From assembly GCA_903813345.2 (NCBI GenBank), contig CAIIXF020000012.1:23634184-23698183 (forward strand): DNA of 64,000 nt, read 5' to 3'. The notes beneath the pieces are model-generated. The model was given only the letters and a program-made list of their open reading frames with translations. It had not been told where the DNA came from and searched no databases. The DNA comes from Owenia fusiformis. Its lineage: Eukaryota; Annelida; Polychaeta; Sabellida; Oweniidae. Of this stretch, positions 19,260-63,278 are shown piece after piece. The position numbers were made by a program, and so were the translations under genes. The first letter of the stretch is position 1. Each line of letters opens with the position of its first letter.

Positions 19260-19905
19260 CCTAAGACCAAAAAGTTTTTGCGGTATTTTTCAACAAAATT
19301 GCGGTAGTTTTTGCGGTAGATTTTAGAAAAAACTGTAGTTTTTGCGGTAGATTTAAAAAAAACCGGTAGTTTTTGCGATAGATTTAAAAAAATACGGTAG
19401 TTTTTGCGGTAGATTTTAAAAAAATACTGTAGTTTCAGAGGTTTGCGGTAGAATTTTGAAAAAAGCGGTAGTTTTGCGGAAGATTTAGAAAAAATGCGGT
19501 AGTTTTACGGTAGATTTTAAAAAATGCGGTAGTTTTTACGGTAGTTTTTTGAAAAACCGGTAGTTTTGCGAAAGATTCTGAAAAAAATGCGGTAGTTTTA
19601 CGGTAGATTTTGAAAAAATGCGGTAGTTTTGCGGAAAATTTTGAAAAATGCGGTAGTTTTACGGTAGATTTTGAAAAATGCGGTAGTTTTACGGTAGATT
19701 TTGAAAATTGCGGTAGTTTTTACGGTATTTTTTTTGAAAAAACCGGTACTTTTGCGGAAGATTTCGAAAAAATACGGTAGTTTTACGGTAGATTTTGAAA
19801 ATTGCAGTAGTTTATACGGTAATTTTTTGAAAAACTGGTACTTTTGCGGAAGATTTGCCAAAATGCGGTATTTTTCGGTAGATTTTGAAAAATGCGGTAG
19901 TTAAA
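19260..19905. repeat. 'gcggtagttttacggtagatttt' minisatellite, array 3
   Basis: About 20 units of 25-35 bases, inverse in sense to arrays 1 and 2 (accgtaaaa on the other strand). Edge sequence 'acctgccaacctaag' at 19252. Confidence 0.88.
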
Positions 19906-31640: not shown

Positions 31641-32616
31641 ATTCAAAACATGTTTAGACACATTGTTTTAAAAATTCAGTTAAATTGAAAAAACCAATAA
31701 AACACAGCATCATTCCTGAAACATATGGAACACCCCATATTAAGGTTTAAATATTTATTATGTGATTGGTCTGGCTTTTCTGACTTCACATTTTTCAATA
31801 TTTGTTAAGTCGAGATCCTTCCAGTCATCATGTTCCATTCACTAACCCAACCTTTCATTCAAAATACCAGCCAGAGTTGATGAGTTAATGTAACTATTGA
31901 TTATTTTCAGGTTTTAGCTGTAGCAGGCGGGGGGACTTATTTGACACCCTGTATATTATGAAAAATGACATTGTATAATATTTAATTCACTTATTAAGTT
32001 AACACTAATGACAAAAGCATCATCAAAATAGTTTGAGATCTCCAATATCAAGATTCATTACATCCGTTCATTCAAAGTACAAGGAAATCATCGTCGATTG
32101 ATTTTATTTTACGTCTGCGAAAAATTAAAAAAGCGATAACAAATCTTTATTTTTCTATACTATATTATTTATTTATTAAGAATATTTCGTAATGACAAGA
32201 TATATAATTGTTATATCGGTGATTCAATGAAGATACCACCAGACGTTTCTTCCAACACCACTTTCATGACTTTTTGCCAATCTGGAAACATGAAACAATA
32301 TATATGTCAAATATTGTATACTATACGAGGGTCGTCAAAAACTCTTGAAATTATATGGACAACTCTCTAGCATATGAATAGCAAGAGCCTAGCTCATTTG
32401 TAGTTTATGATTGTCCTTGTTTAAAAAAGAGAACAGAGTCGATGCATGGCCACTCTTTTTAAACAGTCATAGCTAACTATCACATCTTGGCTCTCATGCA
32501 CGTGATCTTTTTGTTTGAATATTTGTAGTTGAAATCGTTTTAAAGTAATTGAAATCGGAAGTAAATTAATACGATGTATAGTTTGATATTAACCTTGAAC
32601 ATGTCAAAACTTTTGA
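31641..32616. other. Region downstream of the TSP1 gene
   Basis: AT-rich, with a lone mariner-like end 'tttgacaccctgta' at 31935-31948. No gene is recognised. Confidence 0.4.
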
Positions 32617-32622
32617 TTTAAT
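32617..32622 (-). terminator. Putative polyadenylation signal ATTAAA
   Basis: ATTAAA lies on the minus strand about 30 bases after the stop at 32651. No AATAAA is closer; other AT-rich candidates lie near 32146-32180. Confidence 0.35.
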
Positions 32623-32650: not shown

Positions 32651-33336
32651 CTAGTCTAAGCAGCAAAGTGTTGCCCGTATTTCCTCACTTACACCTGTGC
32701 AACTTCCTGGAATAATGTTGTTAAATGCGTCAACACACGGTTGACATATACGGTCCCATTTACACAGAATGAAACCACCGTCGCATGTGGATTGAGTAGT
32801 TCCTGATCCAGTTGTTGTTGGACTATTTGTTGTTGTTGCACTTCCAATAAAAGGTAGACATTGCGTACATGTTTGTTCCACCCATGGCTGCCATATTGTA
32901 CAAGGATTTTGGGTTGTTGTTGTCGGGGCTTGAGTGGTAGTCGGCACTGTTGGACCAGGTGTCGTTGTTGGACCAGGTGTCGTTGTTGGACCAGGTGTCG
33001 CTGTTGGACCAGGTGTTGTTGGTGGACCGGTCGTCGTTGGTGGACCAGTCGTCGTTGGTGGTCTGCAGCAAAGTTCCACTCTTTCATCAACAGCATTTCC
33101 TTCACATGCGGCAGCAGTTGGTACACCGTTTATCACGCAAGGAGGACATACTCTGTTTCGTGAGCACACCTTGGTGCCGTACTCACCAGCACAGATGACC
33201 AAGTCACGCTTTCTTCTGTCTGCTGTCTTAAAGATAGTTTCGGCGCACTCAGATGGACATGACCATGATGTCCATGGTTGCCAGATTTTATTACATGGGG
33301 TTTCAGTTGTGGCCGGTGTTGTTGTAACAGTCGTAG
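32651..33336 (-). CDS. E46: terminal exon, two CC modules and Thr/Pro linker
   Basis: Acceptor TTACAG, phase 1. A Thr-rich lead is followed by CC module 8 (IWQPWTSWSC, a DRRKRD loop, NRVCPPC, ELCC). Next comes a roughly 50-residue TTTPGP-type linker (mucin-like, likely O-glycosylated), then CC module 9 (IWQPWVEQTC, Thr/Ser-rich loop, DRICQPC, LCC) and the stop at 32651-32653, three codons after the Leu-Cys-Cys. There is no transmembrane or GPI-type tail. The shared I-W-Q-P-W start shows that the two modules are an internal duplication. Confidence 0.88.
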
Positions 33337-36300
33337 CTGTAACCAAACAAGTACAGTTTTTTAAACAATGTTATACAGCCATATTTTGTCTGTTGTAATA
33401 ATATAAAGATTACTACAAAAATGATTATTAATAAGCGAAGTTGTTAATACGCTACAATAATAATACGGTAGGTGTTGAATGGCGCCCATTTTCTTCAAAA
33501 TTCCCCCCCCCCACCCCAGATCCGCCAGTGTGGATTTTCATTTCATTACTCACCGTATTGTCTGCAACACGATTCGGTTTTCTTCTCAATTGTGTGACCT
33601 TCACAATCCTGTCCATTGATACCAGGAGCAGCACAAGTACGTACTCGTACACAGGCTTTAGTACCCATCACCAAGCAGTTTGGATCACGTTTTCCGATTC
33701 CCATTGGTGCGCAATCTGGTGCGCATACCCATGCCGTCCATTGGTTCCAAGTTCCCGCACCTAATTTAATCGATGTACATATATAGAGTTAGACTCAATG
33801 ACATTTTTAGGATTTAATTTAGAAATGAGATGATTAAACCAAAATTTATGTCGGTACTTCAAAGTTGGAATTTACATCGCGTCTTGTAGATCATATATTA
33901 TCCTCACTGAATTTCAGCAAAATGATAGCGTTTCTTTCCTGGATAACCATGGTTACGTAACATACCTGTATTTACGCTGCAGCAGAGATCGGTCTTCACC
34001 TCCATACTAGCACCTATGCATTGTCCTGGGAATGTTGGGCTCCTTTTCGTGAGATGCACACTTCGTTTGCCGAACTGTGGACACGGTAGACACGTCCTTG
34101 TTCTCTCGCACGTTCTGTTGCCCAGTTGCAGACAAGGTGGCGTGTTACTGAATGTGTTAACGATGGAGTTCTGACATTCCCCGAATTTCCATGTTGTCCA
34201 ATCTCCCCATGTGCCACACACTGAATGAAAATATCGAATCATACACCAGCATATATTGGCATTTTAGTAGTGCTATATAGTAGTAGTTTGCTATAAAGTA
34301 GTAGTTTGCTATTTAGTAGTAGTTTGCTATATATGTTATCATCACAGTACTACTATGGTAGTAAATATGTTATTATCCAAGCTGCATTATTACTATTATA
34401 TGTTATTATTAGTAGTAAATATGTTATAAGAGAGAATTCGCAACTCACTCAGTATAACTTATAATTATTAATCGTTTGATATACGTCATCATTTATTGCG
34501 CAGTTCCATTATGCCTGGGTCACATATGCTGCGATTCATCGGCCGGCGCCCGGCCGATTGAGTATTTTGTTTAAAATTCAATACATTTCTGAACAAAATA
34601 CTCAATCGGCCCGGCGCCGTAGTGAAAATCGGAGCAAATGTGACCAAGGCATTAGTCAATAAGTGAACCATTCTTTTAAATCGTGATCTATACTAGGAAT
34701 ATCAATGACGTATAGCAAACTCCTTATAAGTTATACGTTATACGGAGGCCTAATTCATGAAAGCTCCGCAAGCCTGCGCAATTCCGCAACTCACTGCGGT
34801 ACCGCTATTTCCAATTCACAAAGGGACCGCAAAGTCAGCATCACCGCAGATATCTTGCGGTACCGCGAGAATTACGTCATTATCGTGCGGTACCTCTGTA
34901 CTTACCGCAAGTCACTCTCTGAAAATTCAGTGTAATGAATCCTCTTGAAAAAACACTTAACATTACCTTTCAGTGATGGTAATACGTACATGTGTAAACC
35001 TGGTATTGCTCTTTTATCAGATTAAGTTTCCCAATGAAAAACTAAAAATTTGAATGTGATATAGACGTTCAAATATGGATGTAAAAGCAACCTGTTCGGA
35101 GTATGTTTTTTAAGATTTTTAAGTTGCAGACAACATTTGAAATGACGTTAAAAGTTCAATTGTTCAAGCAAAAACCTGTATTTTATTGGCAGTGTAGTGT
35201 TTTTGAAAAAAGCCCGTCAAAATCATAAAATTGGGAATTTCGATAAAATATTTTTTTCCATGTTGGAAATTGTCTCCAGAATAAAATATGAAAATTTTAA
35301 TAAGAATGGTTTTTCTATTGCAAATATAGAGTAAAAAAATGACTGCATCATACAACCTGTCCGGGGTACTATACAGCATTTATCTATTTTCTTGCTAAAT
35401 CACTAATTGTTATTGGTACGTACTTCTTGATATATGAATGTTAGAGAAAAAACTTGAAATTGTTGATTATTCAATAATGCGTTCCATTGATTTCAATGAG
35501 TTCTAGCTACCCTTTGCATTCGTTTGACTTCACTTCTTAAAAGAGAGCTTCGTCTTCTTCTTGTAGTTTAACTAGACTCTGCACGCAGGGTAAGTTCTAG
35601 CGATACCTCGACTCTTTGAAAGTACATAAAGTACACCTTCAGTTCTGGAAAGGTTTTGGCACCCCCTAAGTCACGTTGACCTCTGTGGAGGGTGGAAGGG
35701 GGTAATTTGGTCTTGCAAATTATTGTTGTAAAAGGTTGCAAACATTAGGGTTAATTGTATCATTGATCACGAATTTTTTTTTAATCGATTTCTTTACTCT
35801 GTATTGCCGTATTGCACGATTCAGATGGAATCCGACAATAATATGTATCTTAATTCATTTATTCAGAAATGGTCAAAAATCTCTCATTGTTATGTGGAAA
35901 TTTTTCGTCTATATTGTTCGAGAAAAATAACATTTACATTAGAAAAGTGAGAATGAGTTGAGTCGAGAGTTAGAAGATCGGCTTTCCATGGTGATTTTAT
36001 ATGATGAAAAACATTCGAACATTTTAAAGTTGAAGATTTGACACAATTGTTTCATTTGGCGTAGTGTTGAATTTACACCTTCCTACGCCCCTGGGTATAT
36101 TGGTGTAATTATATTCTCCGAAATGTGAACCATCTCCCTTTAATTTCTAGAAGATACTAGATCCATTTTCCCTTTGCCCGGCTTTACTATACGAATGCAA
36201 GGCGCTACAAAATTTTGATGTAAAAACCGGTAAAATCCCGAGGTAAAACAATGACTTAGAAGTTAAATTTCCGGTATTATGGCCATTGTTTGATAAAAAA

Positions 36301-39300
36301 TGTGACTCCGAGGTCATGATTTTCAAGGGACAGTATAGCTTAAATGGGTCAAACTGACATCCCTGCCCTAATAAGTGACACGGTCGTCATGGACATAGAT
36401 TGCGGACACGGAAATTACTTGCGGACACCTAATGAATTTGCGGATAGCTTTATGAATACCACGCAACGCAATAAATTGCGGACACGCAATAGGTCCGCAA
36501 ATACATTGCGGACACGCAAGCTTGCGGAGCTTTCATGAATTAGGCCTCGGGATTCTAATATGATACGTGACGTCACACTGGCTAGAACAATTGATTTATT
36601 GGTCTATATTGGAGTATGTATGACCACTAAAATAGTTGTGTTTCTTGTCTGTTTATCATATTAGAATCGTAACAAAGACCTCGATTTTATGGTTTATGTC
36701 AAATATATGACCTCAAATCTTATTCTGGAGCCCGTTTCTCGAAAACATCGTCAATTACGATTCGTGAATTCAATTGTCTTCTACGATTTTTCCGTTTCTC
36801 GAAACTTGACGATAATCGTCAATTTACGATTTTATCGTGGATGGAGACGATATTGACGACACCTCTAAGGGTACTCGTCAACCATCCACGATTGTTTTCC
36901 TGTGATCTGATTGGTCTATAAAACACTGCACGAAACGTGTCTGAGGATAGTAAAGAAATATAACATTTGCCGGGGAAACCAGATTGGAAAACATAGCCTA
37001 TAAATGAATGGACAGGCCTTGTACCTATATTGAAGCAACCGAGGCGAACGTATTCGAGTCAAATTTTCTTGTTCTTTTAATATTCAAACTTATGTTTCTA
37101 TTGTGTATTATTTTGGAAGAAAATAGTCTTCAAATAAAATATGAATTTCATTAAATTCAAATCTCATCACGAATGACCACGATTATATCCTGGCCATTTT
37201 TACGCCCGGTGATCGGACAGAATGAACGTTGGTGACGATAATAGATCTCATATCTTAGAAGCGTATCAGTTCGAACAAAAACAAGGCATTACCATGACAA
37301 AATGTCACCACCTAGAATAGTTGCTCACAATATTATTGTAGAATAGATTTTGAAAAAATGGTCAATTTGAAGCAAGTTGTAAAAATACCTTTTTGAACTT
37401 TTTTGCCCTTGAAAAGGTCACCGAAGGTCAAATCTTCGTTAAAAAGTCAGATTTGAACTTCTGGAAACTTGTATGATTTTGAAAAACTGTCTAAAAAGTC
37501 AGTCTAAACTGTATTTGTAAAGTTATTGGAAGTTTTGTTACATTACAATTTGTTACAGACTCCAACCGCCGATCACCAACCACCAACCGCTTCCAAAAAT
37601 TGGAATGGAATGCGTCTGCGACCAAGACAGGGGCCTTCTGGGTCGAAAGTGCAATTTTACCTTTACTTGTAGAACACATTTAGTAAGACTGTTAATATCA
37701 ACTTTCTTCTACCGATTTGCGATGCCGGGTTGTGTAAAATTTAGTAAAATACGACATAATTACAATACAATACTAAGGCTAATTCATCTTCTAGATTTCT
37801 GCAGTAAAACTAATTTTCAAAGATTGCGCCAATAAAACTTTATTTGTTATATTGCTAGGCAACTGCTATCAAGTACATGGCGAAAAGTCGTCGATTACGA
37901 TTTCATTGACGAGGTGCTTCGAGAAACGCAATTTGGAAAATCGTGGACAACATCGTAGAAAACAAAAATCGTCAATCCGCGAATCGTAAATCACGATATT
38001 TTCGAGAAACGGGCTCCTGGCCATTGCCTAAGACCTCAATCGCTACGCGATTTCGGTCTTCTAACAATGGACAGAATAAAATCTTCGGTCATATATTACG
38101 CCATAAATCATAAATTCCTTAAATAATAAACATGCTATAATCAGTTGCGAAATCTCTCTATTAATACTCGTATATATATTATTATACAGTTCATAAAAAT
38201 TCCGAGATTGTTGAATTAGATTTTTGTTCTCATGAATGAAAATGTTACTACGAGATAACAGATGATATTGCAAGCGCCGTCAATACGTTCCATGGAGGGG
38301 AATCGTTTAAATTTAGTGAATAATACAGGAAAGCTTACCCTGTGATATGCAAATTTGTGTGTTACAAATATCAGGTGAAGACTCCACATTTGGGCCTTCA
38401 CATGTTGGCTCACCGCCAACAACTCCAAACTGTCTCGTCCTATAGCGAGTTTTCTCTCTAGATCCAATTCCACAGGTAGCGCTGCATTGTGAGTAGCTGT
38501 ACGTAGACCATTCACTCCATTTGCACACTAAATATAGGTAAATACTAGGTATGAGTATTCCATCGCCCATTTTCATATAGAATGGATGCAACATGCAAAT
38601 TGTTTCTACATGATCAGTTGTACATATTGCTATGTCAGTGCTCAAATAGTTTTCTAAAGGCCTTTGAGTTATCAAAAATGTAAAAACTACTAATGTCAAA
38701 TTCGGGAAAGATCAAGTATAATTAAGAGTAGGCTCCCACATGTCACAAAGATGCAAAGTCAAAATATCTAAACATGAATAGCTAATCTGCCAATTCTTCG
38801 TTTTCAATTTAAGGTATATAATGATATAATAAAGAAGTATATAATATTTACAAAGGCCGCCGCCGCCGCCTCCACTGCCGCCTCCACCGCCACTGCCGCC
38901 GCCGCCGCCACTACCGCCGCCGCCACTGCCGGAACCAGGGCAACATTTGATGCTCTTCTCCTCGTATGAATGGCCAAAGCATTGTGGGAACTGGGGACAT
39001 GGTGTGCATGATCTTTGTCTAACGCACTTTTGATCTCCCTGTTGAACACAGAGGCCATTTATTACGACGGAGCCCAGGCACTCTAGGTATTGCCATGTAG
39101 TCCACTGCTGCCACTCATTACATGCTGGAGGTAAAATACATCGAAGCAGGTTATTTTGCCAGATAAGTGAACGTAATCTGGTAGTAGTTCGAAACAAAAT
39201 CTACCAAGTTCGTAACGCTATATATGATGACCCTTTGAAGTACACTGTCAAAAGATTGCTCCACGCGATAGCATAGGAATATATGTATGTGCAATTATTT

Positions 39301-54300: not shown

Positions 54301-57300
54301 AATTGACGATTTTGACGAACTCTTTTAAAGCGCCAAATACAAACATGCTTTGTTGAATGATTCAAAAGGGGACTAAAGGATGGCACAATTATTAAGTTGG
54401 TACTATGGGTGAACAATGGCCGAAATTAACATCTGAAATAAAGTAATCCCAGGAAACACAATGGTCGTAATAATGACTTGCTTGGCTTGGTTATGGGAAA
54501 ATTAAAAAACAATACTATGTAAAATTTCCCTTGCTGTTACGGTCCTGGATTTTGATGATGGAATTGAACAGCGAGTATTAAAAAGTGTTTGTTTCACAAG
54601 GGAATATGGGTTTTGGATAGTTGGGGTTATTCCTTATGACTATACACTTATATGTTTTCTTTTTCTCGCTGAGTTCCTTTACACATTTTGGTCCTTTGCA
54701 AAAAACTAACCTTGTGTTTGTGTTTGGCATGGTGGGCGGACACATGGAGTAGGTGCTTGGCTAATATCAACACTATCACCATCACAGCTACCGGAGGCAA
54801 CAGCGAAGTTCTTTTGGCGTGTTCTGATGAATCCTGTGTATCCATTACCACAAGTGACGCTACACTCTGTGTAGGTAAGTTGGCTCCAAGCGCCCCATTG
54901 GCAAGCTAAAACAGAATTTTTTATTTATAAATCTATTTCAATGGTTATGTCATTTTTGTATTAATAGCGAAATCATTTGGAAATTGACGATTTTGACGAA
55001 CTCTCTTAAAGCGCCAAATACAAACATGCTTTGTTGAATGATTCAAAAGGGGACTAAAGGATGGCACAATTATTAAGTTGGTACTATGGGTGAACAATGG
55101 CCGAAATGAACATCTGAAATAAAGAAATCCCAGGAAACACAATGGTCGTAATAATGACTTGCTTGGCTTGGTTATGGGAAAATTAAAAAACAATACTATG
55201 TAAAATTTCCCTTGCTGTTACGGTCCTGGATTTTGATGATAGAATTGAACAGCGAGTATTAAAAAGTGTTTGTTTCACAAGGGAATATGGGTTTTGGATA
55301 GTTGGGGTTATTCCTTATGACTATACACTTATATGTTTTCTTTTTCTCGCTGAGTTCCTTTACACATTTTGGTCCTTTGCAAAAAACTAACCTTGTGTTT
55401 GTGTTTGGCATGGTGGGCGGACACATGGAGTAGGTGCTTGGCTAATATCAACACTATCACCATCACAGCTACCGGAGGCAACAGCGAAGTTCTTTTGGCG
55501 TGTTCTGATGAATCCTGTGTATCCATTACCACAAGTGACGCTACACTCTGTGTAGGTAAGTTGGCTCCAAGCGCCCCATTGGCAAGCTAAAACAGAATTT
55601 TTTATTTATAAATCTATTTCAATGGTTATGTCATTTTTGTATTAATAGCCAAATCATTTGGAAATTGACGATTTTGACGAACTCTTTTAAAGTGCCAAAT
55701 TTTGGTCCTTTGCAAACAACAAACCTTGTGTTTGTGTCTGGCATGGTGGGCGGACACATGGAGTAGGTGCTTGGGTTCTATCAACACTATCACCATCACA
55801 GCTACCGGAGGCAACGGCGAAGTTCTTTTGGCGTGTTCTGATGAATCCTGTGTATCCATTACCACAAGTGACGCTACACTCTGTGTAGGTAAGTTGGCTC
55901 CAAGCGCCCCATTGGCAAGCTGAATCAGCATCATTGACTTTCAATTATTTTTGGTTCAATTCAATTTTATGGAATTTTAAGCCTGCTACAAATGTGTGAC
56001 CACCGATGTGTGATACGAATTTTAGTTTGGTAAACTACCAGTTTATTATTAATCCGGACTAGGATGAAAAAACATAATTTGAGAAACCTCGAAAAAGTTT
56101 TATAAATATATTTATGCGTATGCATGCATGCTGTACACAGATACTGAGGATGGCAGACAAGGCAAGGGTCTTATTCTATGCAAATGCATGGTAATGCAAG
56201 TAAAGAAAATGCGTGGATGGTTGATTTACGCATGTAATTACAACTTCGTGAAGGTTGGCTAGCATGGATAAATCAAATTTGTATCAAATATAAAAAATAA
56301 AAAATTGAATATCATTAACTAACCTTGTGTTTGTGTCTGGCATGGCGAGCGCACACATGGAGTAGGTGCTTGGGTTCTATCAACACTATCCCCATCACAG
56401 CTACCGGAGGCAACGGCGTAGTTCTTTTGGCGTGTTCTGATGAATCCTGTGTATCCATTACCACACGTGACGCTACACTCTGTGTAGGTAAGTTGGCTCC
56501 AAGCGCCCCATTGGCAAGCTAAAACAGCACTATTGAATTTAATTTTTGGTTCAATTCGATTTGTAGAATTTTAAGCGTGCTATATGTGACGACTGACGTG
56601 TTTTTACGAATTTAAGCTTGGTAAACTACTAATTTATTATTAGTCCAGACTATGATGAAGAAAACAATATTTGAGAAACCTCGAAGTTTTACAATATATT
56701 TCATGTCTATGCATGCATATTGTACAAAAATACTGGGGATGACAAGAATGGATAAATAAATTACTTTGTATCGAAATTCAAAACGATTATTTACAAACCT
56801 TGTGTCTGTGTTTGGCATGCCGGACGGACACATTGGGTTAGTGCTTGGGTTCTATCAACACTTTCACCATCGCATCTACCGAAGGCAACGGCGTAGTTCT
56901 TTTGGCGTGTTCTAATGTATCCTGTGTATCCATTACCACAAGTGACGCTACACGCCGTGTAGATAAGTTGGCCCCAAGCCCCCCATTGACACGCTAAATC
57001 AGCATAATACAGGGTGGTCCAAAAAGTGAACTGTTCCAATGGGCTATATTTCCCTTATTACTTGCAGGAAATCTTTCATATTTTCACATGTTGTAAAGGA
57101 AGGTTTTTGTTGGTATCACACATTTTTTTTTCTAAATCTTGAGATTTGCAGAAATTATAAGCACTAACCCAAAATCACTGAAAATGGATAAAATGTGAAC
57201 TGCGATTCTTCCACCCTTCAACAACCTTCCCGTTGACTTTTTTAGCTGCAGTCTGAAAAACCGAATGTTTCCGATTTTGTTTGGTTTTGAATCCCGCACA

Positions 57301-60300
57301 TTATGGTGTAAAAATTATCATCCTACCTCCAGTTGGAAAGTTATTGTGAATTGTTCAAAAGACAAAACATCTTCCAGTGAAATCGCAACCACTACATGGT
57401 CTTTAAATGTCAATATCTTCATTAATCATGGAAACTTTTAATAGAATATTGCTCATAACACTGAATACTACGTTTCCTTTTGATATATGTAAGCTATTTA
57501 TATGAAGGGCTTCTCAGATTTTGGGTAACATGGGGTAACTTTGCCCCATTTAACCGTTTGTGTAGGTAGCATGCCCCTTAACTGTTGATTGGTTTAAATT
57601 ACTTCAAAATGCTCAATGGAAGTGTGAAATGTGTTTTCTGCTCAAATATTTTTCCATTTGTCACATGGTAGGGTTTAAACTTAGTTGTATATCTTTCACT
57701 GAAAGCTTGTTTAAGATCATCCAATGTGTTTCAACAAGTTCCGTAATTCACGTCGGTGCAATATCTTATTTTAGGCATGTTTGTTTAAGTCTTGTAATTC
57801 TTCAAAATTCAAGACTGAAAATAAATTATGGCATCAACAGAAGATTTAGACCTTTCTCTCCAAGATGTAATAAAATGAGCCAATTCATGCATGTATTATT
57901 AGGAAAATACAGCCTGTTGCAGTTTTTTGGACCACCATGTTTTGGATAGACATTTTTTGTAAATATTGTTTGCAGGAATTTTAAACGTGCTACGCAACGG
58001 TGCTGGACAACATGTTTTCACGTGTATAAACTACTAGTTCAGTATTCGTTCTGTCTAGGCTGAAGAACAGAAGATTTGTGATTGTAAGCTAAAGGAAGGG
58101 ATAAGTCACGGTACATACGTGGTTCAGGGCAAGCGTTTGAGTTACAGGAAAGCATTTGCTTCTCCTCCGAATCTCCATCACAACGAGTTAGACCTCCAAA
58201 ATTGCCAAAAACCTTTGTCCTTGTTCGAGATTTAGACATAGTTCCACCTCCGCAGGACTTTGAACACTGTCCATAGACAAACTGAGTCCATGCTCCCCAC
58301 TGGCAGTCTGTAAAACGTTTATTTGTTCAATCTCGTTGTTCTTCAAAGTAATATTTAGCGTATGACTAAATCATGTTTTGGCGGGTGTTTTGGCCAGTGG
58401 AATGGCTTTGGTAATGATGGGGAATGGCTATTCGTGTGGGTTAGCTATGATGATATGAAACTTTTATCATGTAGCAACATTGTAACTTATTCATAGAATG
58501 TGGTCACCATCATAGGGCATATTAACATAGCAATGGGATAATTGCTTGACGAATTCTGTTTGTAATGTAGATGTATTGGTCAGCTGGATTTCAGATTTTT
58601 GTAGTATGGGCTCAAAGTATGATTGATACGGATACAACTTACTTGGGCATGGGTTATTGTAGCATATCTGAGATTGTTGTGTTTGAACAGATGCCCCAAG
58701 ACATTGTCCAAAATTTCCGGCTCCATAAAGTTTTGTTCTTGAACGGGTCTGATTCCTTACGCCGTTGCCGCATGTGACAGAGCACGCTCCTTGCTGCCAC
58801 GCAGTCCAGTCGCTCCATCTGCAGCTTAAGCCTAAAATGCCAAATTCAACAATGACCTATTCTGACACAATCTAGCGTATGAATGATTCTAGCTTTGAAT
58901 TGCGTGGTTCGTTCAGTGTTAGCTACATGCGCAGTCGTTAGTGCAAATCAGGATGGTTTATTTGAAACCTGTACTGAGAAAGCCTAAGACGATGACCATA
59001 CCTCCGGTACCTCCTCCACAAGGCTGTGTGTTACACACGCCAGTAAACACTTCGCTGCTTTGTCCAAGACAAACATTGTTTCCTGTTGATCCGAAAAGTT
59101 TTATCCTTCTTCTTTCTTTTCTTATGATTCCACCGTTGCATGATTTAGAACAAGGTTGGTCTACCCATGAACTCCACATGCCCCATCTACAGCCTATATA
59201 TATGTAGAATACGGGGGATAGAAGTCAATTAAATTAGGTCAAATGTCGGTATAACGGTGCAATATTCGGTCAAATGGACGTGGAGGCATTTAGTAAAATC
59301 AGGTAGAACAAAGTTAGATACAGTTAAGCATACGGCAGAGGTAGACTAATGTAAGGCAGATTAGATTTCAATTTCATTTTCACAAACCTTGACTTAAACT
59401 ACTTAATATATTCTTTTAAGGGGTTAAGTTAATTTCAGTTTAACCAAGGGGTACATTTATGTTGATCTAGATAAGTAATATTCGTACATGGATTGGCAGC
59501 TGTTCCGCATGTTTGAGGTCCAGGCCCAGGCCCAGGCCCAGGCCCAGGTGCATCCTTTTTCACACAGCCACAAATGTTGACAGCTGTGACCCTAAATACC
59601 TCGAACCTTTTGCATTTCTTTGCCATGACCTTTGAAGCGTTGCTCTGGTGATAACAGGTGTACCCATTTTTGACAGTTGCGGTGTGAAATACTTGGTCGA
59701 CGCAACAAGATGTTGGAGGAGAGCCTCCGTATCGAGGATCACTAGCTGGTGGGCATACACCTAATTAAAATCATATTATGAATTTTACAGTATTTATAAT
59801 CTCATGTATGCATTTCAGATAACAGAGACGCAATAAAAAGATCACAAAAATGAGCCAATAGATTAAATTATGTTTTGTGTATCCGACTTAGATTCGATTT
59901 TTGGTAGATTTGATAAAATACTAGCCTTTTTTCACTACACACTTGGTCATACACGCTTTAAGTTGATTCCTGATGTCAGAACCTGCGTTGTCGACACACT
60001 CTACCCAACAAAGGTGGTTAATGTCTTTCCCCTGGAATTTAGATTTTAAAGGAACTGATTTTAATTAACGAACAAGCTGTCTGCATCATCCTATGCAGGT
60101 ATCCAGAATCCGTACCTCTTTCTTCACCCTGCTATAACCAATTTGGAAGCGCCCGATTAAAGTACACGTAGTTTGCTCAAATTCGCTGGATACACCCGTC
60201 GGGGAGAGGAAAAAGAAATGTTACGACAGTGTAGGCTCAAAGGGCCAGTCCGCTGGTCATTACCATGGTACTTTTGATACGAACCAGTTGATTTTTTCAC

Positions 60301-63231
60301 TAGGTATAGGAAAATAAAATTGCAATTTGCAACTGGTTCGTAATGCCATTTTGACCAGCAGCTCTCAGATTCGTAGGGCATATACTGACTGTATTGGAGT
60401 TGTGATTTTACCTACAATTATGTAGATTTGCTTAATTCAACATGATGCATTATTTTCAATGCATTGTAATATGGCTGGGATCATTGTATTCAGTGTATGC
60501 CCTTATAAGGTTCGTAAAAAGTACCTTTTATTGGTCTCGTCTTTTTCAATACGGCCACGAGTGCACGTTTCTTTACAAGTTCTACATCTTTCTATACACA
60601 TGACCGAAGTCAAAGAATTGAACTATGCGAGGACTTTAGGCAAATGTGATTTCATGATCATGATGATGCAATTTATTTTTCGACGAACGATAAACTAGCC
60701 TAGGTTTCCCAATACATGATTACGCTGTGTGTAGATCTGATAGTCTTTACCTACCTTGGGTATTTTGCATACGCTCGCACATTTTGACATTTTAAGCCTC
60801 TTGCACTTTGTCTTGCAGGGAGCATACTGGCTTTTCTTCCCACCTACAAACAATGCAATACATCTAAAAATCTATATTTGATTATCCCAGAAAGAGCCCA
60901 GATGAGAGTTATTTATTTTGAGGTCTTTCATTTCAGCTTATAGTTCATCCAATAGGTAGCATAGAACTTTTGAAGATTGTATCCCCTATACCTGTGTTAA
61001 TATCTAACGTCAGTGACAATAGAGGAATATTGGAATGCCCGAAGACCTATTTCGAAATATCCAACAAAATGCTTAGATTGTATATATAGCTTTTGACATT
61101 GTTGCATTCAGTGTTAAAGCAAATAAATAAATATTGAAAATAAAGTAGATGGGAAATACCTGTTTAAGGTGTTCCATTTCTGAAAATTCTTACTAAAATC
61201 ATTCCTTTTTATTTAAATGAAAATTAATTTCGTAGTCTTAGTTTTTTTTTTTAATTCTATATTTACTATGAGCATGGCCTGTTGGACATGTTTACCTTTG
61301 ACCCTTTTGGGCTTTTGGGGCTCTGTGCTAACTTTGGGAATTGAGCACTCAGTTATGCATCCTTTCAATTCAGGCAGCTTATCTGTCGCCGCCATCACCA
61401 ATTTAGCGCATTCCTTCCAACACGTTCCGTTAATTTCCATACCCTAAACAAGTGACATGTGAAAGGTGGCGTTAGTATATAGGAGACATACATGCTTTGA
61501 AGGACGTTAAAAACTGCTGGCCGAATTACTACAAGTAGTATTACTTTGAAGTGTGCAATTTTTGTTTTCAAAGCCACTCATTATTAGAATGATGAACATG
61601 TAGACATCTATTATCATCGTAGCTTAGGAATATAATATTTCTGTTTTTCTATTTTGTTTGAAACATCCCGTTTCTATTTGCTTGGTAAACGGACGGGAAT
61701 TAAAGTTATGAGTTTTTTTTGTTAAAATCGCCTAACATCGCTTGAACATATGTGCTCAGAAGGTATTTGAAGTTGGCCAAACTTCTGGAGAGTGACTTTA
61801 CCTTTTTAACTCCACATGGTGGTCCACAGTTATCTGCTATTTTCAATGACGAACATAACCTTTTACACGGTGCATAGGCACTGAGAGCCGTACCTGAAAT
61901 ATATAAAATAATCAGCTTACATTCTATGTAAAATACAGCTTGCATGTCTGAGGCATCATACTCGTTTACCGATTTGATTTTCAATCACAAGTATGAGAAA
62001 TTGATGAAATATAGAGCTATCGGTTTATTTCTATTTCTTAAAGTGAAATTAATATAAAAGGCATTAATACATGTATGTCATTGTCATTTGAAAACTACGT
62101 GTCTGAGTGAATATGTTTTTTTTATTAAGCCCCCGGTACTTTTAAGATATCAGGAAAAGCTCATTGTCCAAATTATATCAAACATGAATTATGGTTAAAA
62201 TTGATTCTTTATTTATTTTACAGCGAACTTTGGGGTATTTCTTTTATACCACCTTCTATCCATGCAACTATTTGACTTCGGGTGATCAAAACAGCAAGAG
62301 TAATTATAGATAAATTAATATATAAATTAATATATGATATTAATATATTATATCAATATAAATCACATAGACACGTTCTGCCATCTACATAGTATTGATA
62401 GATAGCATTCATGCCATATGGGTAAATTATATTTACAATTTTTTGTATGAGTATTGTTTACAATTTTTGTTTAAACAGTTTTTATGATTTTTGAATAAAC
62501 ATTTTTTATGACTTTTGTATAAACATGTTTTACGATTTTTGTTGTGTGAAAGTGGGGCGAATTGGAAAATTGATTGTTTAAAGTAGCGACAAATTCACGA
62601 TCGATCACCTGATTAAATAAACATGCCGTTAAAATAACCCTGCTATATATTTATGTATATTTGATCCGATCCTTCTGGAGTTCCTTGAATATATCGTAAT
62701 ACATAATTAACTTCATTTTTTCTAAACAAATTTGTTTTATGCATGATATCTGAAAATTTCGCTTGTGTCTGTAATTTCCAATAATCTGTTCTGCGGCCAT
62801 TTTAAATTAAAATATATTTTATTGTCAAGATAACAATTTTCAATTAGGCTATACTATTAATTTTAAGAAACAAAAGATCTGTGAAATGACTGAATGAATT
62901 TTTCAATTAAAATTACACAATGTTAAACAAATTAGCAAGTTCATCAGCGATTTCATAAAGAATCCAAAGTTTTACAGTAACATATATTCGAATGATTAGA
63001 TTTTTTTGTCCAAATCAGGTTTTAATATTTTAACGTTACAAAATAAAATAGCACTAATCGACAAAAGAAATGCACATTTGGGCGATTTCGCCGTGATTGC
63101 ATTTCGTGTTTAAACGAAGTATATCGAAATAGTCATTTTGAACAGTTTGAAACATCTATTGAATTAAACAGCAACTTACCTATGACAAATAAGGCAACTA
63201 AGACCGCAAGTAAGGTGCCTCTGGGACTCAT
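32651..63231 (-). CDS. Giant secreted multi-TSP1 protein, 46 coding exons
   Basis: A single minus-strand gene inferred by joining exons E1-E46. All joins keep frame and every TSP1 exon is symmetric phase 1-1, so modules can be gained or lost without frameshift. The conceptual protein is about 3,071 residues: signal peptide, four CXXXC-pair exons, an unrecognised Cys-rich domain, 32 TSP1 repeats and nine CC-ending variants, then a stop with no membrane segment. TSP1 repeats are recognised by W-x2-W, the CS-x-[TS]-CG-x-G core, the R-x-R layer and the C-N-T-x2-C end. Known TSP1 proteins act in matrix assembly and in protein or glycan binding, so an extracellular structural or adhesive role is an inference. 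The weakest joins are E5-E6 (non-canonical donor) and E6-E7 (weak donor). If E6 is really terminal, there are two genes or two isoforms. No orthologue name can be given. Confidence 0.83.
32944..33062. repeat. 18-base coding minisatellite in E46
   Basis: Six to seven units of a 'gttggaccaggtgtcgtt'-like repeat encode the TTTPGP linker on the minus strand. The units next to the flanking CC module are more diverged (ggaccagtcgtc). Confidence 0.8.
33554..33760 (-). CDS. E45: CC variant module 7
   Basis: TWNQWTAWVC, DCAPMGIGKRDPNC, CVRVRTC, then AAPG where other CC modules have C-x-P-C, DCEGHTIEK, SCC. It lacks the second Cys of C-x-P-C but gains one in the first loop, suggesting rewired disulfides. 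Donor G|GTGAGT. Confidence 0.85.
33966..34220 (-). CDS. E44: CC variant module 6, with dibasic loop
   Basis: CGTWGDWTTWKFGEC, CLQLGNRTC, TRTCLPCPQFGKR, LTKRSP, QCIGAS, LCCS. Same 255-base length as E16 and the same GKR...KR loop, so these two are probably direct relatives despite lying about 20 kb apart. Confidence 0.87.
34262..34345. repeat. 'tagtagtagtttgctata' tandem repeat in intron
   Basis: Three to four ~20-base units in the intron between E43 and E44. Confidence 0.75.
34508..34654. repeat. Foldback in the E43-E44 intron
   Basis: 'atgcctgggtcacat', 'ggccgg' and 'caaaatactcaatcggc' are mirrored on the other side, ending 'tgtgaccaaggcat'. Confidence 0.8.
34745..36548. mobile_element. 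1.8-kb TIR element in the E43-E44 intron
   Basis: GAGGCCTAATTCATGAAAGC at the left and its exact inverse at the right, followed inwards by 'ttgcgg/ccgcaa'-rich subterminal repeats. No transposase and no clear target duplication. Confidence 0.7.
35513..35595. repeat. Dispersed repeat, inverse copy at 44470-44545
   Basis: 'tttgacttcacttcttaaaa' and 'actctgcacgcagggt' recur in reverse orientation in the E31-E32 intron. Confidence 0.75.
36727..38017. mobile_element. 1.3-kb TIR element in the E43-E44 intron
   Basis: GGAGCCCGTTTCTCGAAAA and its inverse at 37999-38017 are the ends; subterminal 'tcgtcaattacgat' motifs are repeated in both orientations. A non-autonomous DNA transposon by structure. 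Confidence 0.75.
38339..38527 (-). CDS. E43: TSP1 repeat 32, last canonical module
   Basis: CKWSEWSTY, CSATCGIG, TRYRTRQFG, TCEGPNVES, CNTQICISQG. It is followed by a 4.1-kb intron filled with transposon remnants before E44. Confidence 0.9.
38852..39124 (-). CDS. E42: CC variant module 5 with natural Gly-Ser linker
   Basis: CNEWQQWTTWQYLEC, CVQQGDQKC, RSCTPCPQFPQC, FGHSYEEK, IKCCPG, then about 27 residues of Gly with a Ser every five or six. It resembles E16 and E44 (QGDQ, TPCP, E-E-K). The donor CTTT|GTAAAT fits phase 1. The linker is encoded by a GCC/GGC-rich repeat at 38857-38933. Confidence 0.85.
39499..39690 (-). CDS. E41: TSP1 repeat 31
   Basis: CRWTQWSSW, CSKTCGSG, YRTRTQLFQT, ACTESPVET, CNTQTCVPQTG. 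Sister of E36. Phase 1-1. Confidence 0.9.
40109..40303 (-). CDS. E40: TSP1 repeat 30
   Basis: CTWTPWNVI, CSVTCGTG, IRQRYYEY, QCIGSSLQS, CNTQSCSGTGG. Sister of E35. Phase 1-1. Confidence 0.9.
40602..40805 (-). CDS. E39: TSP1 repeat 29
   Basis: CKWSDWQTQ, CSKTCGGG, YTRTKISVA, SLTCEGEP, CNTQPCGVL. Sister of E34. Phase 1-1. Confidence 0.9.
41169..41381 (-). CDS. E38: CC variant module 4
   Basis: CQASYGQWTSWAYGQC, VGSIGTTGSC, CTRTRSCPTCPTN, FCFGAS, VSCCGTQQ. Sister of E33. Donor T|GTAAGG. Confidence 0.88.
41703..41891 (-). CDS. E37: TSP1 repeat 28
   Basis: CQWTEWSET, CTKSCGTG, TRQKRY, KCDGPSQNQ, CNTNPCFN. Fourth TSP1 of its block, with no clear counterpart in the next block. Confidence 0.9.
42137..42319 (-). 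CDS. E36: TSP1 repeat 27
   Basis: CQWSQWGQW, CTRSCGSG, TRTRNQLFQT, ACTSSPIES, CNTQQCIPG. It resembles E41 (RTxLFQT, ACTxSPxE). Donor GTTAGA. Confidence 0.9.
42629..42820 (-). CDS. E35: TSP1 repeat 26
   Basis: CQWSQWISS, CSASCGVG, QNRYRTY, QCFGLSTRN, CNTNSCDGGG. It resembles E40 (QCxGxS, TxTG region). Phase 1-1. Confidence 0.9.
43103..43309 (-). CDS. E34: TSP1 repeat 25
   Basis: CKWSDWQVL, CSKTCGSG, YRTKISVG, SLTCVGPA, CNTRPCGGG. It resembles E39 closely (CKWSDW, RTKISV, SLTC), suggesting that blocks E33-E34 and E38-E39 share an origin. Confidence 0.9.
43577..43792 (-). CDS. E33: CC variant module 3
   Basis: CTTVYKEWSEWSYGPC, LGSVGPTGAC, LCKRTRVCPNCPTN, a loop to NCGTE, then VACCGTTMC. It is clearly related to E38 (shared GSxGxTGxC and CCGT). 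Donor T|GTAAGT. Confidence 0.88.
43901..44095 (-). CDS. E32: TSP1 repeat 24
   Basis: CKWSVWGVA, CSATCGTG, VRRTRAH, RCDGSSTSN, then CYIRPC in place of CNTQPC. Phase 1-1; donor T|GTAAGT. Confidence 0.9.
44562..44756 (-). CDS. E31: TSP1 repeat 23
   Basis: CYWTPWTAA, CSKSCGSG, TRTRNK, RCDGLSSES, CSTQQCGIGGG. Phase 1-1; a tandem 20-base repeat abuts its acceptor side. Confidence 0.9.
44757..44935. repeat. 'gtctacaagtgaaatatat' tandem repeat in intron
   Basis: Seven or more ~20-base units lie directly beside the acceptor of E31. Confidence 0.8.
45142..45339 (-). CDS. E30: TSP1 repeat 22
   Basis: CIWSSWSNS, CDKTCGTG, VRSRTY, QCVGDSQK, CNTNPCGN, with a Ser/Gly-rich tail. Phase 1-1. Confidence 0.9.
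45614..45808 (-). CDS. E29: TSP1 repeat 21
   Basis: CQWGPWTTI, CGKSCGSG, TRTRNY, RCDGPDSQ, CNTQACGAGGG. Phase 1-1; acceptor TTGCAG, donor G|GTATTT. Confidence 0.9.
46423..46617 (-). CDS. E28: TSP1 repeat 20
   Basis: CAWSQWAVV, CSKTCGIG, LRQRSK, TCDGVANDN, CNVNPCGGN. Phase 1-1; first of a block of five TSP1 modules (E28-E32). Confidence 0.9.
46718..46948 (-). CDS. E27: CC variant module 2
   Basis: CNVWGEWTQWNYGTC, a Gln-rich loop, CAVYG, CNRTRSCSPCPGQLQC, IGQSIQQKTEQCC. Same C-x-P-C and CC marks as E16, but the loop is short and has no dibasic site. Donor T|GTAAGT. Confidence 0.88.
47181..47366 (-). CDS. E26: TSP1 repeat 19, T subtype (186-base form)
   Basis: CQWGPWSQL, CSVTCGNGYTGY, RTRQKNFAVVSG, CVRSPCQQG. 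It ends the T/Q array on the C-terminal side. Like E10, it has the YTACSV and YTGY readings, so the two ends of the array resemble each other. Confidence 0.9.
47870..48040 (-). CDS. E25: TSP1 repeat 18, Q subtype
   Basis: CQFSQWSAYQSNAQ, CSKSCGVG, ESRSRVV, NCVGATVESK, CNTQACAR. Third Q exon, donor C|GTAAGT. Confidence 0.9.
48221..48409 (-). CDS. E24: TSP1 repeat 17, T subtype (189-base form)
   Basis: Short-ended T module (PPCQQQG), GTTTGT donor, directly before Q exon E25. It completes the T...T-T189-Q cassette. Confidence 0.92.
48548..48742 (-). CDS. E23: TSP1 repeat 16, T subtype
   Basis: CQWGAWSQL, CSVTCGNGYKGF, RTRQKNYAVASG, CQTQTQG. Third unit of the 332-333-base ladder. Phase 1-1. Confidence 0.92.
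48880..49074 (-). CDS. E22: TSP1 repeat 15, T subtype
   Basis: CQWGAWSQL, CSVTCGNGYTGF, CQTQTQG. It differs from its neighbour E23 at only a few positions (for example YTG/YKG and F/Y before AVASG). Confidence 0.92.
49213..49407 (-). CDS. E21: TSP1 repeat 14, T subtype
   Basis: CQWGPWSQL, CSVTCGNGYKGF, RTRQKN. First of three units set 332-333 bases apart (E21-E23). The intron after it matches those of E22 and E23 almost base for base. Confidence 0.92.
49618..50405 (+). mobile_element. 5'-truncated LINE fragment, C-terminal ORF2
   Basis: The plus strand, antisense to the host gene, carries an open frame to 50177. It holds a C-x2-C-x9-H-x4-C motif (CEYC...H...C at about 49887-49942) typical of the C-terminal region of non-LTR retrotransposon ORF2 proteins. 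After the stop, an AT-rich tail with AATAAA (50377) follows. Flanking intron sequence matches the intron near 47600-47660, so the limits are set by where that match breaks. Reverse transcriptase and endonuclease domains are absent. Confidence 0.75.
50633..50803 (-). CDS. E20: TSP1 repeat 13, Q subtype
   Basis: CQFSQWNAYQSSAQ, CSKSCGVG, ETRTRVV, NCVGATVESK, CNTQACAR. Paralogue of E17 and E25 with shared flanking intron sequence. The intron on its 3' side carries a LINE fragment. Confidence 0.9.
50986..51174 (-). CDS. E19: TSP1 repeat 12, T subtype (189-base form)
   Basis: Short-ended T module (PPCQQQG) with a GTTTGT donor, immediately upstream of Q exon E20. It repeats the T189-Q arrangement of E24-E25. 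Confidence 0.9.
51443..51804. mobile_element. Harbinger-type MITE in the E18-E19 intron
   Basis: The ends TAGTCCATTTG and inverse have diverged arms about 100 bases long. The site reads gg-TTA-[element]-TTA-tggg, whereas the paralogous introns at about 54494 and 55175 read ggTTAtggg. So the target duplication is TTA, as for PIF/Harbinger elements. Confidence 0.85.
52020..52214 (-). CDS. E18: TSP1 repeat 11, T subtype
   Basis: CQWGAWSQL, CSVTCGNGYKGF, RTRQKN, SCDGDSVDITQ, with a GTTAGT donor. Y-K-G instead of Y-T-G groups it with E21, E23 and E24. Phase 1-1. Confidence 0.9.
52312..52363 (-). pseudogene. Truncated T-subtype exon fragment
   Basis: After an intact-looking acceptor (TTTAG), the first ~50 bases of a T exon are present (CQWGAWSQLTYTACSV equivalent). 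The sequence then jumps straight into intron sequence shared with other T units, so the cysteine core and donor are missing. Probably left by unequal crossing-over between exon copies. Confidence 0.75.
52839..53009 (-). CDS. E17: TSP1 repeat 10, Q subtype
   Basis: CQFSQWTAYQSNAQ, CSKSCGVG, ESRTRVV, NCVGASIETK, CNTQACGR. At 57 codons this is the shortest TSP1 form in the gene. The first Trp is Phe (CQFSQW), a shared mark of the three Q exons. Confidence 0.9.
53693..53947 (-). CDS. E16: CC variant module 1, with dibasic loop
   Basis: CGQWSAWSEQVGQC, then CLVQGDQ, TRTCTPCPVGKRDLHKR, CVGES and a closing KCC. This is a TSP1-related layout (W-x2-W, R-T-C layer) with a C-x-P-C motif and a terminal CC instead of C-N-T-x2-C. 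The loop between C-x-P-C and the next Cys carries KR twice. A Gly-rich tail (TSGGGGTG) leads to E17. Confidence 0.85.
54036..54224 (-). CDS. E15: TSP1 repeat 9, T subtype (189-base form)
   Basis: T module six bases shorter at its end (PPCQPQG rather than CQTQTQG). This short form is followed by a CC module here, and by a Q-subtype exon at the equivalent place in two other cassettes (E19, E24). Phase 1-1. Confidence 0.9.
54711..54905 (-). CDS. E14: TSP1 repeat 8, T subtype
   Basis: Almost the same as E13 base for base, including its downstream intron. CSVTCGNGYTGF, SCDGDSVDISQ, CQTQTQG. Loss of the Arg in the last loop (DISQ instead of DRTQ) marks the E13/E14 pair as sisters. Confidence 0.92.
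55392..55586 (-). CDS. E13: TSP1 repeat 7, T subtype
   Basis: Same module as E14, including the Q-A-S-I-N linker reading in place of Q-N-R-T, and the same GTTAGT donor. It belongs to a 681-base repeat period shared with E14 and E15, so exon and intron were copied together. Confidence 0.92.
55725..55919 (-). CDS. E12: TSP1 repeat 6, T subtype
   Basis: Near-identical to E13 and E14, starting exactly 333 bases from E13. CQWGAWSQL, CSVTCGNGYTGF, RTRQKNFAVASG, CQTQTQG. The acceptor side flows into a unique intron, marking one edge of the recent tandem block. Confidence 0.92.
56324..56518 (-). CDS. E11: TSP1 repeat 5, T subtype
   Basis: T-subtype module with CSVTCGNGYTGF, RTRQKN and SCDGDSVDRTQ. 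The donor is GTTAGT, unlike the GTTTGT of most T exons. Its second half carries a Ser-Pro-Cys ending like that of E26. Phase 1-1. Confidence 0.9.
56799..56993 (-). CDS. E10: TSP1 repeat 4, T subtype (founder-like)
   Basis: CQWGAWGQL, CSVTCGNGYTGY, RTRQKN, RCDGESVDRTQ, ending ACQTQTQG. It is the most diverged of the 195-base T subtype (ALTQCVRPAC where the others have APTPCVRPPC), so it may be close to the unit from which the later array grew. Confidence 0.9.
57010..57939. mobile_element. Mariner-like element in the E9-E10 intron
   Basis: CAGGGTGGTCCAAAAAGTGAACTG begins after TA (57008-57009); the right end reads CAGTTTTTTGGACCACCATG. About 930 bases with no transposase frame. Confidence 0.72.
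58119..58307 (-). CDS. E9: TSP1 repeat 3
   Basis: CQWGAWTQF, CSKSCGGG, SRTRTK, RCDGDSEEK, CNSNAC. Phase 1-1; donor C|GTATGT. It is separated from E10 by an intron holding a mariner-like insertion. Confidence 0.88.
58643..58831 (-). CDS. E8: TSP1 repeat 2
   Basis: CRWSDWTAW, CSVTCGNG, TRSRTK, CLGA, and a divergent end CYNNPC in place of CNTQPC. Phase 1-1; acceptor TTTTAG, donor A|GTAAGT. Confidence 0.85.
59002..59193 (-). CDS. E7: TSP1 repeat 1
   Basis: CRWGMWSSW, then CSKSCNGG, RKERRR, CLGQ and CNTQPC. The first Gly of the usual CG-x-G core is replaced (CNGG). Phase 1-1; donor G|GTATGG. First module after the N-terminal Cys-rich region. Confidence 0.85.
59488..59760 (-). CDS. E6: unrecognised Cys-rich domain with Pro-Gly tract
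   Basis: Acceptor TTAG at 59761-59762, phase 1. It encodes a roughly 70-residue domain beginning VCPPASDPRYGG, with a CC pair (TSCCVDQ), a lone C (GYTCYH), C (AKKCKRF) and a terminal CGC (NICGCVKK). A five-times repeated Pro-Gly linker and TCGTAANPC follow. The paired CC and closing C-x-C recall cystine-knot-like domains, but I do not recognise the family. The exon is modelled to end at a weak donor T|GTACGA that gives phase 1. Without splicing, the frame continues 17 codons to a TGA at 59435-59437. Confidence 0.6.
59519..59548. repeat. 'cccagg' coding microsatellite in E6
   Basis: Five hexamer units encode the Pro-Gly tract on the minus strand. Confidence 0.9.
59926..60031 (-). CDS. E5: fourth CXXXC-pair exon, long type B
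   Basis: Acceptor TTCCAG, phase 0 in, 1 out, as in E3. It encodes LCWVEC, a 14-residue spacer, then CMTKC, matching CWKEC...CITEC of E3. The exon end that fits the next frame uses a GC donor (AAAAAAG|GCTAGT). The GT alternative AAGT|GTGTAG also keeps frame and shortens the exon by 12 bases. Confidence 0.68.
60755..60843 (-). CDS. E4: third CXXXC-pair exon, short type A
   Basis: Phase 1 in, 0 out, as in E2. It encodes YAPCKTKC...KCASVC, a C-x3-C-x7-C-x3-C pattern preceded by Y-A-P exactly as in E2 (AYAPCKRLC). It is a paralogue of E2. Confidence 0.72.
61296..61443 (-). CDS. E3: second CXXXC-pair exon, long type B
   Basis: Phase 0 in, 1 out (donor AAAG|GTAAAC). The motif is CWKEC, a 16-residue spacer ending LPELKG, then CITEC. 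A Lys/Pro-rich tail (QKPKRVKG) links to the next module. E2 and E3 together form a phase 1-1 cassette that E4 and E5 repeat. Confidence 0.75.
61802..61893 (-). CDS. E2: first CXXXC-pair exon, short type A
   Basis: Acceptor TTTCAG and donor AAG|GTAAAG, phase 1 in and 0 out. It encodes PCKRLC...NCGPPC, a C-x3-C-x8-C-x3-C arrangement. Two CXXXC motifs separated by a short helix-prone stretch are the hallmark of alpha-helical hairpin (hairpinin-like) folds. The fold assignment is inferred. Confidence 0.7.
61897..63173. other. First intron, no feature recognised
   Basis: AT-rich, with short 'atttttatgattttgtataaac' repeats near 62440-62545. Confidence 0.5.
63180..63231 (-). CDS. E1: start codon and signal peptide
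   Basis: The exon encodes MSPRGTLLAVLVALFVIG, with a basic residue followed by a hydrophobic core, as expected of a secretory signal. The donor is G|GTAAGT, leaving phase 1. Cleavage would fall in E2, after the small residues of TALSAYA. The ATG is the only one in frame ahead of the hydrophobic stretch and lies just below the TATA box. Confidence 0.75.
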
Positions 63232-63269: not shown

Positions 63270-63278
63270 TTTATATAC
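63270..63278 (-). promoter_or_regulatory. TATA box of the TSP1 gene
   Basis: The minus strand reads GTATATAAAC here, about 40 bases upstream of the ATG at 63231. A start site some 25-30 bases downstream would fall near 63245, leaving a very short 5' UTR. Promoter use is inferred from spacing only. Confidence 0.5.

Follow-up and report, generated by a model that had tools for sequence, protein, structure and literature searches.

The window, a stretch of 64,000 nucleotides (C12:23634184-23698183), was analyzed together with the genome it belongs to, which was searched as 498 Mb in 525 contigs, at least 12 of them large (C1 to C12 each have matches past 27 Mb). It contains exons for the erythrocruorin linker of annelids (three matches, best E 5e-7), which makes an annelid the likely source. 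On the minus strand, open frames and splice sites combine from 63231 to 32651 into a model of 46 exons that encodes 3,071 residues in a single frame. An earlier reading, made from the sequence only, had claimed one continuous frame of 46 exons and ~3,070 residues, and our reconstruction arrives at the same exon number and the same ends. The coding length is 9,216 bases including the stop codon, which is the sole one in the frame and terminal. We consider this gene model, and the gene family described below, to be highly probable. The features are the following, all on the minus strand:

63270..63277, minus: TATA-box-like element by sequence, TATATAAA, 39-46 bases 5' of the ATG
63180..63231, minus: exon 1, start codon (ATG at 63231) and predicted signal peptide, phase 1 donor GTAAGT
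61802..61893, minus: exon 2, CX3C header half A1, phase 1-0
61296..61443, minus: exon 3, CX3C header half B1, phase 0-1
60755..60843, minus: exon 4, CX3C header half A2, phase 1-0
59926..60031, minus: exon 5, CX3C header half B2, phase 0-1, with a GC donor (G/GCTAGT) or, for an exon end at 59941, a weak in-phase GT
59488..59760, minus: exon 6, 'CPP' cysteine domain, GP-repeat linker and CGTAANPC tail
54036..59193, minus: exons 7-15, nine TSP1 modules (59193-59002, 58831-58643, 58307-58119, 56993-56799, 56518-56324, 55919-55725, 55586-55392, 54905-54711, 54224-54036)
53693..53947, minus: exon 16, CC module 1, 8 Cys, two KR sites in the loop
47181..53009, minus: exons 17-26, ten TSP1 modules, two duplicated subtypes (53009-52839, 52214-52020, 51174-50986, 50803-50633, 49407-49213, 49074-48880, 48742-48548, 48409-48221, 48040-47870, 47366-47181)
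46718..46948, minus: exon 27, CC module 2, 9 Cys
43901..46617, minus: exons 28-32, five TSP1 modules (46617-46423, 45808-45614, 45339-45142, 44756-44562, 44095-43901)
43577..43792, minus: exon 33, CC module 3, 9 Cys
41703..43309, minus: exons 34-37, four TSP1 modules (43309-43103, 42820-42629, 42319-42137, 41891-41703)
41169..41381, minus: exon 38, CC module 4, 9 Cys
39499..40805, minus: exons 39-41, three TSP1 modules (40805-40602, 40303-40109, 39690-39499)
38852..39124, minus: exon 42, CC module 5, 9 Cys, glycine-rich tail
38339..38527, minus: exon 43, final TSP1 module
33966..34220, minus: exon 44, CC module 6, 9 Cys, two KR sites in the loop
33554..33760, minus: exon 45, CC module 7, 8 Cys
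32651..33336, minus: exon 46, CC modules 8 and 9 (10 Cys each) on either side of a Thr/Pro mucin-like linker, then the stop codon (end 32651)
32103..32177, minus: candidate polyadenylation signals AATAAA (starts 32177, 32151, 32108); also ATTAAA at 32622

All 45 acceptors in the model are AG and 44 of the 45 donors are GT, the exception being that of exon 5. Every exon is open, and the lengths of exons 6-45 are all divisible by three. The exon finder offered phase 1-1 sites only, so that continuity of the frame is not by itself independent evidence. A less biased check, using neither donors nor a choice of phase, is the spacing of AG and cysteine: an AG lies exactly two bases ahead of the first cysteine codon in 37 of the 39 exons 7-45, compared with 60 of 1,040 TGY triplets (5.8%) on the same strand in positions 1-32000 of the window. 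An additional CX3C-like frame (60622-60506) was excluded from the model, its splice phases being judged by eye not to fit.

Elsewhere in the window, intron 20 contains a 189-codon open frame on the opposite strand (49608-50174, plus) that by eye looks like a retroelement fragment and has no Pfam match at 0.01. Positions 1-32000 carry tandem arrays with units of 163 bases (1-1102), 142-145 bases (7830-8533 and 9513-10403) and 31 bases (14480-15239 and 19335-19902); four long open frames tested from this region gave no Pfam match above cut-off.

The sequence-only reading had counted 32 TSP1 modules, and we recover them as 32 exons, each containing six cysteines and grouped in runs of 9, 10, 5, 4, 3 and 1. 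The Pfam search that it had proposed as a check identifies them as members of the TSR superfamily: TSP_1 scores above cut-off in all three TSP1 exons scanned singly, a subset of the modules, and in all three longer pieces scanned. These pieces, 2,013 residues in total, returned only TSP1-type families at E<=0.01 (exons 1-5 were scanned apart, and within exons 13-26 the scans covered two single exons and exon 16), and in one of the three TSP1_spondin reached 43.8 bits against a cut-off of 41. A three-module TSP1 stretch had no PDB match at 0.01 by phmmer. The W..W motif is present in 29 of the 32 modules and the O-fucose site C..[ST]CG in 31, where it sits between the second and third cysteines; this position corresponds to group 2 TSRs in the part of PMC11990869 on which we draw.

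Nine CC modules, spread over eight exons, were also claimed. Their count stands, but their description as a CC variant is better replaced by that of divergent TSP1 domains: compared as a group with the TSP1 modules, they obtain 94.5% in hhalign, and on this profile evidence they are probably derived TSP1 domains. Plain HMM comparison, in either direction and with tiny search sets, is weak for many single modules. All nine retain W..W and lack the fucose site. Five of five CC exons scanned alone had no Pfam match at E<=1 (exons 38, 42 and 45 were scanned inside longer pieces), and sequence searches of PDB with CC modules gave only antibody-hinge matches, at E 0.17 or worse. An AlphaFold2 model built from nine window sequences (pLDDT 79) has two long strands; Foldseek returned 18 PDB chains for it, none significant (best E 1.2), with properdin entries at ranks 1-7, 9 and 10 and an F-spondin TSR at rank 15. 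Among 31 distinct CC modules from this gene and related ones, nine is the commonest number of cysteines (23 modules), ahead of ten (five modules) and eight (three modules); rows below 30 bits were dropped, identical modules were counted once and two unparsable modules were skipped. For the present gene alone the numbers are five, two and two for nine, eight and ten cysteines. A further locus outside this count, L055, has two CC modules with ten cysteines. Dibasic pairs occur in the loops of 13 of the 31 CC modules, versus any pair in four of the 32 TSP1 exons; these are raw counts, uncorrected for the differing lengths of the loops.

The N-terminal part of the predicted protein is of another kind. 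The CX3C exons consist of A and B halves; a comparison of nine A-B pairs, drawn from several genes, shows eight invariant cysteines and one invariant proline. Sequence matches of this header are weak: zf-Tim10_DDP scores 17 bits on exons 1-5, below the Pfam cut-off of 22.3, and is found in two of nine members (best E 0.00032), with TIM9 and TIM8 at E ~0.04 and peptide W37 at E 0.25. The header thus shows a weak resemblance to twin-CX3C helical hairpins. For the CPP domain, at least 37 matches are listed in the genome, 33 of them at E<=0.0011, its own included. Of 34 full sequences, 31 entered the alignment; the three omitted were near-identical copies, and three fragments were dropped too. Its 31 members gave chance-level Pfam matches only, with no CBM_14 at E<=1, and the domain had no PDB match at E<=10. 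Identification as CBM14 was rejected, hhalign giving only 13.8% (controls: TSP1 0.1%, CC 0.2%) and the order of cysteines being different; a single-sequence AlphaFold2 model (pLDDT 42.6) was too poor for use. The header and the CPP domain thus appear to be two modules that find no place in curated families.

The module kit recurs in other genes, many of them on the same chromosome, and constitutes a gene family in this genome. Architectures were read with five module models. The present gene (P1) has the order A-B-A-B-CPP followed by 32 TSP1 modules, one truncated remnant and nine CC modules; a truncated TSP1 exon of the repeated subtype lies at ~52262-52384 (minus), with an acceptor-like AG and only the first part of the module. 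P2, 1.9 Mb away (C12:21.75-21.79 Mb), repeats the full order of signal peptide, CX3C A-B-A-B, CPP, TSP1/CC and Thr/Pro-rich last exon, with 14 TSP1 matches (one truncated), six CC modules and matching last exons. P3 (C12:22.54-22.56 Mb) reads A, A-B, five TSP1 and eight CC without CPP, its first B half being visible by eye and missed by the model. P4 (C12:6.48 Mb) has A-B and then six CC-CPP pairs; in the loci L017 and L018 (C12:6.48-6.49 Mb) one header is followed by six alternating CC and CPP modules, and the model detected no TSP1. P5 (C12:6.27 Mb, a partial stretch) reads A-B-CPP-CPP-TSP1-TSP1-CC-CPP, with two weak CPP fragments in addition. The headers of P2, P4 and a gene on C6 each have, on their 5' side, a signal-peptide exon with a phase-1 donor; for P5 and L020 the scan gave none. 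Further header-type exons are on C6, where L053 (39.01 Mb, with a candidate signal-peptide exon upstream) and L054 (27.18 Mb) have header A-B exons and, by eye, no TSP1 or CPP exon in the stretch. CC arrays are on C4, where L019 (24.30 Mb) and other matches at 24.13-24.30 Mb form a distinct subtype with no header or CPP exon by eye within 3.5 kb. The family thus joins a known domain (TSP1), what is probably a strongly derived form of it and the two modules without a curated family, as symmetric exons.

Dense one-strand clusters of TSP1 exons were also observed at C1:24.23-24.27, C1:60.93-60.95, C1:22.89-22.91 and C7:30.98-31.07 Mb, in a survey that scored 150 of 1,008 candidates and in which none of those listed falls in the window. 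They are possibly further giant TSP1 genes. The claim of a very high module count therefore needs tempering: 32 is high, but given these clusters it may not be unique within the genome.

Some of the repeats in P1 are recent. Exons 13-15 include a 983-base tandem duplication with 98.3% identity (54037-55019 and 54718-55700, minus), and there is a 333-base array with 97% identity. Such figures, together with the truncated exon (at about 52366-52262), are what would be expected if part of the array were an assembly artifact or a decayed stretch and the true module number lower. We think this unlikely. The 46 exons are all open, and when all pairs of 13 repeat exons of one subtype are pooled, pN/pS is 0.22; because the differences are biased to synonymous sites, most copies look real and constrained. 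Between P1 and P2, over 535 aligned codons in ten matched pieces, pS is 0.79 (saturated) and pN 0.39. The substitution pattern thus supports purifying selection on the gene. Copy number could nevertheless vary between individuals or assemblies, some of the repeat exons being recent, and the locus offers a clear example of recent exon amplification within one coding gene.

We favor a single secreted protein encoded by exons 1-46 as the best and simplest reading, because a single signal-peptide exon was found in the gene span and because P2 and P3 join, in open frames, modules that are separate exons here. The 19-residue mean of hydropathy is highest over residues 7-25 (2.35) and reaches at most 1.25 in windows starting past residue 25. 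This one strongly hydrophobic stretch bears out the claimed signal peptide and absence of a membrane anchor and, with the exon scan, is what is expected of a secreted glycoprotein. When the gene span was scanned for signal-peptide exons with a good phase-1 donor, one emerged, at 63231; two control stretches, positions 1-31900 of the minus strand and the plus strand of the whole window, gave one each. The 43-kb span of P2 likewise gave one, located at its 5' end, and the P3 stretch, whose start lies just ahead of the first P3 header exon, gave none. A single open frame of P3 holds both the last CX3C exon (B2) and the CGTAANPC linker, and a TSP1 exon close to exon 7 comes next; in P2 the CPP domain continues into a W..W..W stretch without leaving its open frame. 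The sequence thus argues against transcripts that end at exon 6 or restart at exon 7.

That the locus holds two or more genes, such as a small CX3C gene that stops at exon 5 plus a TSP1 gene further on, or a separate gene after intron 43, is in our view very unlikely. The weak spot of the model is exon 5, whose donor is non-GT with a stop codon just past the GC site, or else the weak in-phase GT 15 bases upstream, which would re-form a cysteine codon across the junction; its P2 counterpart has a GT donor usable in the same phase, and exon 6 has no in-frame start between the upstream stop and its first cysteine, as a gene beginning there would need. The 4,118 bases of intron 43, with five AATAAA, would also suit separate genes, as would the large gaps between neighboring modules in P2 (up to 11 kb) and P3 (up to 7 kb). 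Against this, no second signal-peptide exon was found in the span of P1 or P2, and the last CC exons of P2 and P3 are within ~2 kb of their neighbors.

As to function, we see about an even chance that the protein serves as a structural glycoprotein open to cross-linking, whether in an extracellular matrix, a tube, mucus or an adhesive secretion. The signal peptide would export a giant protein in which the A-B-A-B header and the CPP domain are followed by 32 TSP1 modules, split and ended by the nine CC modules, with the mucin-like Thr/Pro stretch between the last two of these. The motifs for O-fucose and C-mannose would make it a long glycosylated rod, which is likely because the fucose and W..W motifs are accompanied in the genome by a POFUT2 gene (best PDB match POFUT2, E 7.5e-75) and by DPY19-type exons. 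An odd count of nine cysteines may leave one free to bond to another module or chain, so that the CC modules could act as cross-link points along the rod, in a family that would have been amplified through exon and gene duplication. It is this combination of a likely glycosylated rod with odd-cysteine CC modules that suggests a structural, cross-linkable role. However, four of the nine CC modules of the present gene have eight or ten cysteines, and a bond between two odd modules within one chain is also conceivable.

A more specific version is speculative, and we would give it a minor chance. Here the CC module would be a new kind of TSR acting as a polymerization node: three extra cysteines would surround the R-x-R strand, loops with dibasic sites, often paired ones, would in some modules be cut by convertases, the nicked chain would stay disulfide-linked, and the freed cysteine would join chains. 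If this were true, genes of the header-CPP-TSP1-CC type would be a previously undescribed class of polymerizing matrix proteins, in which the length of the TSP1 runs is the spacer between cross-links; the cross-linking reading itself, if correct, would imply a new route from TSP1 modules to a polymer.

Two other functions have to be weighed against a structural one. The protein could be a soluble defense protein, a many-module opsonin or pattern-recognition molecule like properdin, expanding under microbial pressure, which we regard as doubtful. Clustered paralogs, recent repeats and the properdin entries that top the Foldseek list would fit, but those matches are insignificant and the TSR fold is widely shared; moreover, Pfam reported no protease, lectin or other domain in the parts scanned, and the pN/pS between repeats indicates constraint. 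Less probable still is a developmental signaling or guidance protein acting like SCO-spondin or F-spondin. A giant secreted TSR array is in keeping with this (human SCO-spondin has 25 TSRs in the portion of PMC11990869 used), as is the TSP1_spondin match in one of the three pieces. A multi-gene expansion, however, sets the family apart from a single guidance gene. In SCO-spondin the TSRs are accompanied by EMI, VWD, LDLa and CTCK domains, whereas no non-TSP1 family rose above cut-off in the scanned parts of the present protein.

The structural glycoprotein that we prefer can be set beside several known systems. Thrombospondins carry TSP type 3 repeats and a C-terminal domain, neither of which appeared in the Pfam-scanned parts. 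With properdin, thrombospondins, F-spondin, THSD7 and other TSR proteins the modules share W..W, C..TCG and R.R; they differ from properdin, thrombospondins, F-spondin and THSD7 in their number and in the CC modules, which mostly have nine cysteines and long loops. The header has the twin CX3C spacing of small TIM proteins and alpha-hairpinins, with weak sequence matches, and is unlike them in its secreted context and in having the A and B halves on separate exons. By eye, the CPP domain has a CP.G..F....C stretch as in CBM14 (peritrophin-A, chitin-binding), a likeness that is not convincing in view of the different cysteine order. No description of the header-CPP-TSP1-CC architecture was found in the open-access literature, as far as our partial coverage extends. 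We read the product as a secreted protein of the TSR superfamily with a probably derived TSR and two modules without a curated family; the TSP1 domain itself is known. The TSP1 modules agree with the group 2 TSRs of PMC11990869, as described in the part used, in their six cysteines and in the place of the fucose site. Similar in overall form is human SCO-spondin, also a giant secreted protein made mostly of TSRs that carry POFUT2 sites (16 of the 25), from which the present gene differs by its 32 TSP1 and nine CC modules, its CX3C header and its CPP domain. These 32 plus nine modules exceed those of every TSR protein entry that we compared from PMC11990869, including the 19 TSRs of human THSD7A.
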